From assembly GCF_016907775.1 (NCBI RefSeq), contig NZ_JAFBCO010000001.1:1364001-1428000 (forward strand): DNA of 64,000 nt, in the 5' to 3' direction. The notes beneath the pieces were generated by a model that did not search any database, was not told the DNA's origin, and saw only the letters and a list, made by a program, of their open reading frames with translations. This DNA is from Pseudoglutamicibacter cumminsii (GTDB taxonomy: Bacteria > Actinomycetota > Actinomycetes > Actinomycetales > Micrococcaceae). Shown in pieces: positions 6,304-9,066 of the stretch (positions are counted from its first letter, which is position 1; the number at the start of each line of letters is the position of its first letter). The position numbers were made by a program, and so were the translations under genes.

Positions 6304-7314
6304 ATGCATCAGCAGCAGTCGATGAAGCCACGTGGTCGCCGAGCGAACCGCGTCGCTACGCCCACCGCTATGTCGTCCGTACCAACCGCGGATTCACCGC
6401 GTCGTTTCGCGGGCACATCTCGTTATGGTGTCGCGGCAGATCTCGAAGCGTTGCTTGCGCTCGCGCCCCAAGCCGATGCGGTTGAAGCTGGCGCTCCTGC
6501 GCCCGTCCGTGCTGCAGTAGTTGCGGCCCCAGTGGAAGAGGCTCCAGCTCGCGCCGCATCGAACGTCATCGCCTTTGAAACGCGTAGCGCTCGCCGTTCC
6601 AAGAACGCGCACGCCGCCCGCAAGCTAGGCGGCTACGCGACTGCGATCGGTAATATCCCTCAGCGTGCCGCGGTAGCAGCGGCTTCGGCTGGCTTGGTTG
6701 CCCTGTTGCTTGCACCTGGTCAGAGCCCTAAATCTGAGGACGATGTGGTCAGCGTAGAGCGTGCCTCTCAGTCGCTTCCTGTGGTTAACGACGTCGTTGC
6801 GCCGGCTGTTCCGCAGACGGTTGCCCACGTGCAGGCGCAGGCTGTCGCCCCAGAAACGCTGGCTGAAATCCTTGAATCGGCAGGTGGGCCGCTGAACCTG
6901 ACGCCGGAGCAGAAGCTAGGTCTGCTTGCTCATCCGGTCAACCCGGTCCGGGTTACGTCCCCATTTGGTAACCGCCCAGACCCATGGGGCGGCAATAAGA
7001 TGGTAGGACACGTGGGGCAGGACTACGCGACGACGTGCGGGCAACCTGTGTACGCGACCGCACCGGGAACTGTTGTTCAGTCTGAATCTGCAGGTCACTC
7101 TGGCCTGCGCGTGACGATCGATCACGGCTTCGGCTTGGAGACGGCATACAGCCACAACACGGCGCTTAAGGTGAACGTCGGTGACGAAGTCGATACCGGT
7201 GACCTGATTGCTTTGTCCGGTACTACGGGCAATTCCACGGGATGCCACGTTCACTACGAAGTCATTATTGACGGTGAATTTGTTGACCCGGCTGACTGGG
7301 TTGGGCGGCAGTAA
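6304..7314 (+). CDS. M23-family peptidoglycan endopeptidase, membrane-anchored
   Basis: LytM/M23 zinc metallopeptidase that should cut peptide cross-bridges in the cell wall. The C-terminal domain has the zinc motif HVGQD (His236, Asp240) and the paired HVHYE (His315, His317), with PVRVTSPFGNRPDPWGG at its entrance. A hydrophobic segment at about residues 120-138 acts as signal or anchor. It is preceded by an unusually long, Ala/Arg-rich N-terminal tail of about 115 residues, giving a type II topology. That hydrophobic segment resembles the one in the next gene's NlpC/P60 protein. The ATG at 6304 follows GGGGAAGGGGAAGG. Similar M23 genes lie near pcrA-sucCD in mycobacteria. Confidence 0.88.
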   Translation: MHQQQSMKPRGRRANRVATPTAMSSVPTADSPRRFAGTSRYGVAADLEALLALAPQADAVEAGAPAPVRAAVVAAPVEEAPARAASNVIAFETRSARRSKNAHAARKLGGYATAIGNIPQRAAVAAASAGLVALLLAPGQSPKSEDDVVSVERASQSLPVVNDVVAPAVPQTVAHVQAQAVAPETLAEILESAGGPLNLTPEQKLGLLAHPVNPVRVTSPFGNRPDPWGGNKMVGHVGQDYATTCGQPVYATAPGTVVQSESAGHSGLRVTIDHGFGLETAYSHNTALKVNVGDEVDTGDLIALSGTTGNSTGCHVHYEVIIDGEFVDPADWVGRQ

Positions 7315-7356
7315 AGAGTGCTGTCCGACACACCGGTCACCGTTCCGTGATCAAAA

Positions 7357-7393
7357 TGTGACAATTCGATAACGTTGCAGTATTGTTATCAAA
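7357..7393 (+). promoter_or_regulatory. Tentative promoter and shared motif of the NlpC/P60 gene
   Basis: TGTGAC (7358-7363) and TATTGT (7381-7386), 17 bases apart, could be -35 and -10. GATAAC (7368-7373) and GTTATC (7385-7390) form an inverted repeat, and TTGTTATCAAA (7383-7393) repeats the motif in front of the M23 gene. The exact start site is uncertain. Confidence 0.4.
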
Positions 7394-7424
7394 GTCGGAA
7401 AGAGACATCGATCCGACAAGGACT

Positions 7425-7586
7425 CGGAGCCGAACACTGCCCCGAGCTTAAACAAACCGAACACGCAAAGGCAGTGGCGGGGGAACCAAACTTTCGGAGC
7501 TAAGGAGCTCCTAGGGGTAAAGCGGGAAACCGCCGAGAGACTCCCTCTCGAACCCGACAGCTCACCCCGCAGGCACAGGGAGAGGT
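7425..7586 (+). ncRNA. Cyclic di-AMP riboswitch (ydaO-yuaA class)
   Basis: The leader of the NlpC/P60 gene carries the recognisable actinobacterial ydaO pattern: CCGAACACTGCCC at the 5' side, GGCGGGGGAACC, then AGGGGTAAAGCGGGAAACCG, and at the 3' side GAACCCGACAGCTCACCCCG followed by CAGGC. This class binds c-di-AMP and often precedes Rpf and NlpC/P60 wall hydrolases in actinobacteria. The Shine-Dalgarno GGGAGAGG (7578-7585) ends the element, and its GAGAGG part can pair with CCTCTC (7544-7549) inside the aptamer, which suggests control of translation. The boundaries are approximate. Confidence 0.85.
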
Positions 7587-7594
7587 AATTAGAA

Positions 7595-8464
7595 GTGACC
7601 AAGCGTATTGAAAAGGGACGCCACCGCGCGGCCACATCCGCTAGCTCATTCGAGATCCTTAGCCGCGCAGTTGCATCCAACGCTGGCGCAATGGGTCGTC
7701 AGGCAGCGGTTGTTGCGGCAGCGAGCGGTCTCGTCGTAACCCTTGGTGTTTCCGGCGCTAACGCCACCAAGCAGGATCAGGCGGCAACTCCTGAAGAGAA
7801 CAAGACGCTCAACGTTGAGCGCACTGCTTCCGTCAAGCCAGCCGATATCAAGGCAGAGGCAAAGGTAGCTCCAATCGCATCTGTGAAGGTCAAGGCGACC
7901 CCAGCTCCGGTTGTTGAAGAAGTAGAGGAAGCAGACGAGGCGGCTGCATCGTCCGCAAACGGCGCCCAGTCGGAAAACACCGACAACGGCCTCACTGAGG
8001 CTGACTACGCTGCTCAGACCAGCGCAGACGGCACCACCGCGGCTGCAACAGCTCCAGCGACGTCCTCGCCAGCACCTAAGAAGAAGGCTGAAAAGGACAC
8101 CCCAGCACCGAAGGCAGCTTCCGGCATCGCCGGCACCGCACTTTCCTACAAGGGTGCTCCATACGTATGGGGCGGCACGACCCCATCCGGTTGGGACTGC
8201 TCCGGCTTTGTGCGCTACGTATACGCACAGAACGGCATCAACCTCAAGGGCCGCTCGACCCACGCGATGCTCGCATCGGGTCAGCTCAAGCGTGTGTCCA
8301 ACCCACAGCCAGGCGACCTCGTGTTCCAGAACGGCAACAACCACGTCGGCATCTACATTGGTGGCGGCAAGATCATCGGCGCTCAGAACCCTAAGGTCGG
8401 CACTGTGATTCGCCCAGCGAACTCGCCATATGGTCCGCTGACCGGCTACTACCGCGTCGGCTAA
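7595..8464 (+). CDS. NlpC/P60 cell-wall hydrolase
   Basis: Secreted cysteine peptidase that cleaves peptidoglycan stem peptides. A basic N-terminus and a hydrophobic stretch (about residues 36-56) form an export signal. A long Ala/Glu/Pro-rich spacer (about 60-170) would span the wall. The catalytic domain at about 173-289 has Cys202 in WDCSGFV and His250 in NNHVGIYIG, as in the NlpC/P60 fold (YKGAPYVWGG, QPGDLVFQ). The start is GTG at 7595, nine bases after the Shine-Dalgarno GGGAGAGG that lies within the riboswitch. No LysM or SH3 domain is seen. Like the M23 protein before it, it probably acts in growth or division under c-di-AMP control. Confidence 0.93.
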   Translation: MTKRIEKGRHRAATSASSFEILSRAVASNAGAMGRQAAVVAAASGLVVTLGVSGANATKQDQAATPEENKTLNVERTASVKPADIKAEAKVAPIASVKVKATPAPVVEEVEEADEAAASSANGAQSENTDNGLTEADYAAQTSADGTTAAATAPATSSPAPKKKAEKDTPAPKAASGIAGTALSYKGAPYVWGGTTPSGWDCSGFVRYVYAQNGINLKGRSTHAMLASGQLKRVSNPQPGDLVFQNGNNHVGIYIGGGKIIGAQNPKVGTVIRPANSPYGPLTGYYRVG

Positions 8465-8485
8465 GAAGCCAAGCTTATGCAGCTA

Positions 8486-8502
8486 ACGAGCAGCAGGCTC
8501 GT
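8486..8502 (+). other. Small hairpin before the main terminator
   Basis: ACGAGC (8486-8491) pairs with GCTCGT (8497-8502) around AGCAG, 22 bases after the NlpC/P60 stop and 17 bases before the long hairpin. Comparable small hairpins precede other long terminators in the window. Confidence 0.45.
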
Positions 8503-8519
8503 ACATCAGCTCCAATAGC

Positions 8520-8567
8520 AAACAGTGATGGGGCGGAACCTCAAGAGGTTCCGCCCCATCACTGTTT
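8520..8567. terminator. Perfect 23-bp hairpin between convergent genes
   Basis: Arms 8520-8542 and 8545-8567 are exact inverted complements with AA at the centre. The right flank continues as GTTTAACC. It separates the NlpC/P60 gene from the Nudix gene on the other strand. Confidence 0.9.
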
Positions 8568-8616
8568 AACCTCCTCGGTGATGGAGGGTGGGCCAAAAGC
8601 CGACGCCTAGACCAGC

Positions 8617-9066
8617 TCACTCGCCGCCGCGACCGATGACCCGCGGCAAAACATGCTCACGCAACAACGGAGCGACATGCGGGTCCTCGATGGCCTCCAC
8701 AGGATCCCGCCACGCGATCTCAGCCAGCTCTGCATCCGCACGGACAGGCCCATCGTGCGCCTCATCGTAATCAACATCGAAAAGATGCGCGATTAACGGA
8801 GTGTCGGCCTCGTTAGCGGCCCAGCCTGACCAGATTCCCCTGGGTATGTACCTAGACTGGGGAAGAAACAAACCGATCTCTTCACCGAGTTCTCGGGAGG
8901 CAGCCTCAATCGGTTGCTCACCAGGTTCTGGTTTGCCACCCGGTTGCATCCATTTAGATGTACCGCGCTTGCGAACCAAAAGAATCCGGCCGGAACCGTC
9001 AAGAACTCGAACGGCTGAAACGGTGATCGGATTGTTGTTAGCGAAATCTATACGTGCTGATGTCAT
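8617..9066 (-). CDS. Nudix hydrolase
   Basis: A 149-residue Nudix-fold pyrophosphohydrolase. The Nudix box is complete (GGKPEPGEQPIEAASRELGE then EIGL, matching Gx5Ex7REUxEExGU), so metal binding and activity are expected. The substrate (nucleoside diphosphate derivative, damaged NTP or other) cannot be read from the sequence. The start could be ATG at 9066 or GTG at 9072; there is no Shine-Dalgarno for either, and the first hydrophobic strand (ITVSAVRVLD) is well inside both. The gene is divergent from the ROK regulator with only 31 bases between, so their promoters must overlap. Confidence 0.9.
   Translation of the reverse strand: MTSARIDFANNNPITVSAVRVLDGSGRILLVRKRGTSKWMQPGGKPEPGEQPIEAASRELGEEIGLFLPQSRYIPRGIWSGWAANEADTPLIAHLFDVDYDEAHDGPVRADAELAEIAWRDPVEAIEDPHVAPLLREHVLPRVIGRGGE

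Follow-up and report, generated by a model that had tools for sequence, protein, structure and literature searches.

We consider it probable that the NlpC/P60 peptidase gene nlpC of Pseudoglutamicibacter cumminsii (Micrococcaceae) is controlled by a c-di-AMP OFF riboswitch acting on translation. In a 64,000-nucleotide stretch of the genome (the window, to which all positions refer), comparative analysis identified an aptamer overlapping the Shine-Dalgarno (SD) sequence of nlpC, a conserved and covarying pseudoknot at this site and a start codon directly behind it. According to the mechanism that we propose, the hairpin loop CUCCC (7541-7545) would pair with the tail GGGAG (7578-7582) over the SD of nlpC. 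With c-di-AMP bound, the folded RNA and this pseudoknot would be stabilized and would keep the 30S subunit off the SD, and without the ligand the short helix would open and nlpC would be translated. For ligand binding, the OFF direction and the steric block we rely on reporter work in Corynebacterium and on the crystallised ydaO RNA, and c-di-AMP would most likely hide the SD rather than expose it.

A full-length c-di-AMP aptamer precedes nlpC

A cmscan search placed the complete Rfam model RF00379 (model positions 1-134 of 134) at 7445-7589 on the plus strand. The score of 68.9 bits (gathering score, 38 bits) and the E-value of 7.1e-14 put the match far beyond chance and confirm, on covariance grounds, a true member of the c-di-AMP (ydaO/yuaA) riboswitch family, for which binding of the ligand is predicted. 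The first-pass annotation had described a ydaO-type aptamer at 7425-7594; the aptamer was recovered there, within slightly narrower limits. The whole window contained two matches above the gathering score, this one and a tRNA. No other RF00379 match was found in the genome, and one match per genome was likewise obtained in three further genomes of the genus, so that all four have a single copy. In the window, the NC line of the Rfam alignment marks non-canonical pairs in the outermost helix, P1 (two of its four pairs), and in a two-pair arm of the aptamer (one pair). The genome also has one match to the diadenylate cyclase (DAC) domain (95.2 bits), and therefore the host probably makes c-di-AMP.

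Five nucleotides after the end of the match, a GTG codon opens the nlpC reading frame (7595-8464, plus strand, 289 aa), which carries the expected NLPC_P60 domain (PF00877, 83.3 bits). The best named relative of the protein is 95% identical and comes from Pseudoglutamicibacter cumminsii; none of the NCBIfam models reaches its cut-off. Between 7250 and 8620, the only sigma-70-like promoter match was a weak, tentative GTGACA-17-TATTGT at 7358-7386 on the plus strand (9/12 matches; mean of 0.2 in shuffled sequences). The four terminator-like sites detected in the same interval belong without exception to the minus strand, in agreement with the earlier remark that no terminator stem with a T tract is visible. 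One inverted repeat (8522-8565; 20 pairs, 4-base loop) lies 3' of nlpC, in the gap where nlpC and a NUDIX gene converge, and was scored as a minus-strand terminator.

The gene immediately preceding nlpC (6304-7314) encodes an M23 peptidase and is without an RF00379 riboswitch of its own, the single match of the window being located elsewhere. Among 31 full-length nlpC relatives, by contrast, 24 have a further copy of the aptamer motif, located 0.9-1.7 kb upstream; in L011, the only relative in which the gene concerned was checked, it precedes an M23 gene. Clusters of three RF00379 riboswitches in a stretch of about 3 kb occur in some relatives, namely in Actinomyces sp. AC-20-1 (L067, 1099-3567) and in Arthrobacter castelli (L070, 1892-4866).

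The Shine-Dalgarno sequence lies within the predicted pseudoknot

The SD-bearing tail GGGAGAGG occupies 7578-7585 and is located inside the Rfam model, whose consensus at this point is GaGaGg. The SD had been assigned to the 3' edge of the aptamer in the first-pass annotation, and this placement holds, as do the positions given for the tail and for an upstream CCTCTC (7544-7549). Based on the sequence and on the start spacing in relatives, we define the SD region as GGAGAGGT (7579-7586, plus strand), which overlaps the 3' strand of the pseudoknot; an alternative reading of the SD as GAGG(U), at 7582-7586, would share only one base with GGGAG. The Rfam alignment places a hairpin at 7535-7549 on the plus strand, with the stem GAGA (7535-7538)/UCUC (7546-7549) and the loop GACUCCC (7539-7545), which would present CUCCC as the 5' strand of the pseudoknot.

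In the crystallised ydaO RNA the corresponding loop contains ACUCCUUCG and the 3' end is CGAAGGAGAA, and the pseudoknot of this RNA is described as stable and made of many base pairs (PMC5393176). In our reading, these two segments would be the pseudoknot strands of that RNA, with the window's GGGAG at the position of the GAAGGAG tail of ydaO. At the positions of the two strands, the window has ACUCCC (7540-7545) and GGGAG (7578-7582). Taken as a bare helix, CUCCC/GGGAG has a calculated energy of -7.0 kcal/mol, and the longer CUCCCU (7541-7546)/AGGGAG (7577-7582) one of -8.6 kcal/mol. In predicted folds without pseudoknots, the SD was mostly unpaired in 7445-7620 and more paired in 7400-7640 and 7530-7600; since its pairing varies with the stretch that is folded, folding alone decides nothing.

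The arrangement was then followed through the 31 nlpC relatives, in 29 of which (19 distinct sequences) the aptamer motif immediately precedes the gene. All 29 have CUCC at a fixed position of the loop and GGAGAGG in the tail, so that CUCC and GGAG are complementary in every case, corresponding in the window to loop CUCC(C) at 7541-7545 and tail (G)GGAG at 7578-7582. In the same 29 sequences, the first ATG, GTG or TTG, counted in any frame from at least 4 nt on, starts 5-10 nt past the last G of GGAGAGG. A covariance search detected RF00379 in 8/8 named loci, six of them among the 31 relatives. Within the relatives sampled, the SD-hiding arrangement looks common.

Loop and tail covary across aptamers

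Covariation between loop and tail was analyzed in 161 distinct aptamers from the genus, family, order and phylum sets, using as a control 500 shuffles in which tails were swapped between sequences. The mean score of the best loop-tail helix was 15.04, compared with a mean of 12.23 and a maximum of 12.83 after shuffling, a significance that is overstated because the shuffles ignore relatedness and the sequences are not independent. Every set taken alone, the Bacillota set included, also scored above its own 500 shuffles. Helices of 4 bp or more were possible in 161/161 aptamers, and in a mean of 154.7 and a maximum of 160 after shuffling; loops and tails are so alike that this measure does not discriminate, and discrimination comes from the score and the outer pair alone.

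When the core was TCTC/GAGA, the next outer pair was Watson-Crick in 40/60 aptamers (shuffled mean 19.3), a count reached in none of 2000 shuffles, and the second outer pair in 21/60 (shuffled mean 15.2; 103/2000 shuffles reach 21). For the CTCC/GGAG core, which is the type found in the window, the corresponding values were 27/57 (shuffled mean 18.0; 1/2000 reach 27) and 19/57 (shuffled mean 16.9; 567/2000 reach 19). These counts outside the CTCC/GGAG core indicate that a pseudoknot of the window's type is often just 4 bp long. Loop/tail pairs within the family include CUCCCU/AGGGAG, CUCCCA/UGGGAG, UCUCAUG/CAUGAGA, UCUCAG/CUGAGA and CUUCAU/AUGGAG. A first pseudoknot search in which the hairpin was not fixed often chose other helices; it gave a 3' strand ending in GAG(A) for 4/4 genus, 20/56 family, 9/41 order and 2/11 other-phylum tails.

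Start codons lie close to P1 in most Actinobacteria surveyed

RF00379 was found in 333/395 genomes of the family sample, 72/119 of the order sample, 39/198 of the phylum sample and 53/81 Bacillota genomes, the family, order and phylum samples overlapping with one another. For the survey of start-codon distance, 223 loci were entered, leaving out 80 loci from the search that gave the best named NlpC relative. Removing nine loci without a recognisable core motif and one containing N left 213, and removing eight more (four without a clear hairpin, four without a clear P1 match) left 205, representing 190 distinct aptamers; L121 and L122, although placed in the order set, belong to the window's own family. 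As the start we took the first ATG, GTG or TTG whose frame stays open for 100 codons or more; some starts assigned by this rule may be wrong, and that of L213 (233 nt) looks wrong.

The distance from P1 to a start codon is at most 35 nt in 2/2 genus, 61/62 family and 54/55 order aptamers, in 29/42 of the other-phylum set and in 2/29 of the Bacillota set, rates that may be flattered because the loci are best-scoring matches and 100 regions were picked by hand from capped lists for genus spread. In the other-phylum set, three of the 13/42 aptamers without such a start are counted there because no start was found. The end of the pseudoknot strand is 0-18 nt before the start in 2/2 genus, 60/62 family, 50/55 order, 28/42 other-phylum (39 with a start) and 2/29 Bacillota aptamers (28 with a start).

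In one genus of the phylum sample with genomes of 7-10 Mb (g84), the tail GGAAGG is followed directly by AAAGGAG; on visual inspection, the pseudoknot strand is adjacent to the SD, without overlap, in its loci L148, L150, L151, L154, L157, L161, L162 and L265.

From these distances we lean towards the view that in most of the Actinobacteria surveyed the c-di-AMP riboswitch may do without any expression platform other than its own pseudoknot strand. As this strand would itself be the ribosome site, SD sequestration would be the default design in these bacteria, and the Bacillota design would have distant starts and other platforms. The pseudoknot would then be under two constraints at once, its SD core being kept while the outer pairs covary.

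Alternative explanations

Occlusion of the SD upon ligand binding is the simplest reading of the locus, since no plus-strand terminator was found, there is no room for one and the SD lies inside the knot. The first-pass annotation had proposed that GAGAGG (7580-7585) can pair with CCTCTC (7544-7549). In that case CCTCTC would leave its hairpin and hide the whole SD in an alternative structure. The two segments are indeed complementary in the window, where they would form a 6-bp helix (bare duplex, -8.2 kcal/mol) covering AGG fully, and the pairing recurs in 4/4 aptamers of the genus set. However, it is complementary in only 3/29 nlpC relatives (L005, L006 and L017), compared with 29/29 for CUCC/GGAG, and is thus peculiar to the window's genus and one Galactobacter. 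Among GAGAGG-tailed aptamers it was found in 0/56 of the family, 0/41 of the order and 0/11 of the other-phylum sets, and in 1/4 of the Bacillota set, which contained a P. cumminsii locus (L172) by mistake. It would also open the hairpin of the Rfam model, because CCTCTC overlaps the loop by two bases and the remaining UCUC (7546-7549) is the 3' strand of the stem. We therefore rejected CCTCTC as the conserved partner and regard its pairing as a very improbable route to SD occlusion.

About equally improbable is a two-state version, proposed for C. glutamicum by Reich et al. (PMC9960051), which shares its OFF state with our preferred reading and differs in the free state: without ligand, CTCC would pair with a GGAG lying some 20 nt upstream, and the ligand would free CTCC for the SD. 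In the window, however, the helix has no counterpart at that distance; the nearest upstream GGAG (7504-7507) is 34 nt before CTCC and within a predicted GGAGCU/AGCUCC hairpin, and CTCC itself is located in a hairpin loop. Control of transcription, with the ligand triggering Rho-dependent or non-canonical termination as in Streptomyces rpfA, seems unlikely, although less so than these two. A disA mutant of S. venezuelae is reported to have five-fold more rpfA transcript, and premature termination on c-di-AMP binding is also described (PMC10117811), and in C. glutamicum the transcript is lower with the riboswitch than without it at any c-di-AMP level (PMC9960051). Yet the transcript level in C. 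glutamicum does not respond to c-di-AMP (PMC9960051), and the window offers neither a plus-strand terminator-like site in 7250-8620 nor more than 5 nt between the model match and the start. Translational control, which the first-pass annotation had set against the Bacillus examples, is thus the best reading, and is further favoured by the reporter evidence for C. glutamicum nlpC; for Corynebacterium, this contrast had already been published.

Discussion

The closest known system is nlpC (cg2402) of C. glutamicum, for which Reich et al. 2023 reported that c-di-AMP lowers reporter fluorescence while the transcript is unchanged, that the second cistron is not significantly affected, and that a CTCC/GGAG pseudoknot may form over the RBS (PMC9960051). 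In both loci a ydaO-type RNA precedes an NlpC/P60 gene, a canonical terminator is missing and CTCC/GGAG pairing is proposed over the RBS, and OFF control, most likely at translation as described there (PMC9960051), would be common to them. They differ in genus and in the kind of evidence, with reporters in C. glutamicum and sequence alone in our case. The arrangement is therefore largely ordinary, having been proposed for Corynebacterium; its kind is already known, and what is added here is the proximity of start codons to P1, counted from the genus to the Bacillota sets.

In Bacillus subtilis ydaO/kimA, binding of c-di-AMP leads to a terminator and to premature termination (PMC9960051). The aptamer family is the same, whereas in the window no terminator was found and the SD lies inside the 3' tail of the model. 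In Streptomyces rpfA, binding of c-di-AMP is likewise reported to cause transcription termination (PMC10117811), so translational control is not established as a general rule for Actinobacteria. A 2024 review places ydaO among the RBS-occluding 'interdomain docking' classes (PMC10907184, section 5), which recalls the preQ1-III and cobalamin riboswitches, where docking favoured by the ligand hides the RBS (PMC10907184), although their ligands and aptamers are unrelated to c-di-AMP and ydaO. In that review the partner bearing the RBS is regarded as a separable expression platform, dispensable for ligand binding (PMC10907184). In the literature searched, to which the Nelson 2013 and Block 2010 originals did not belong, we found no statement on SD overlap across the family.

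Our findings suggest that, throughout a bacterial family, c-di-AMP directly controls the translation of cell-wall hydrolase genes. The overlap of pseudoknot and SD allows the mechanism to be tested on one helix, and raises the question of how far Streptomyces rpfA, reported as transcriptional, has the same design.
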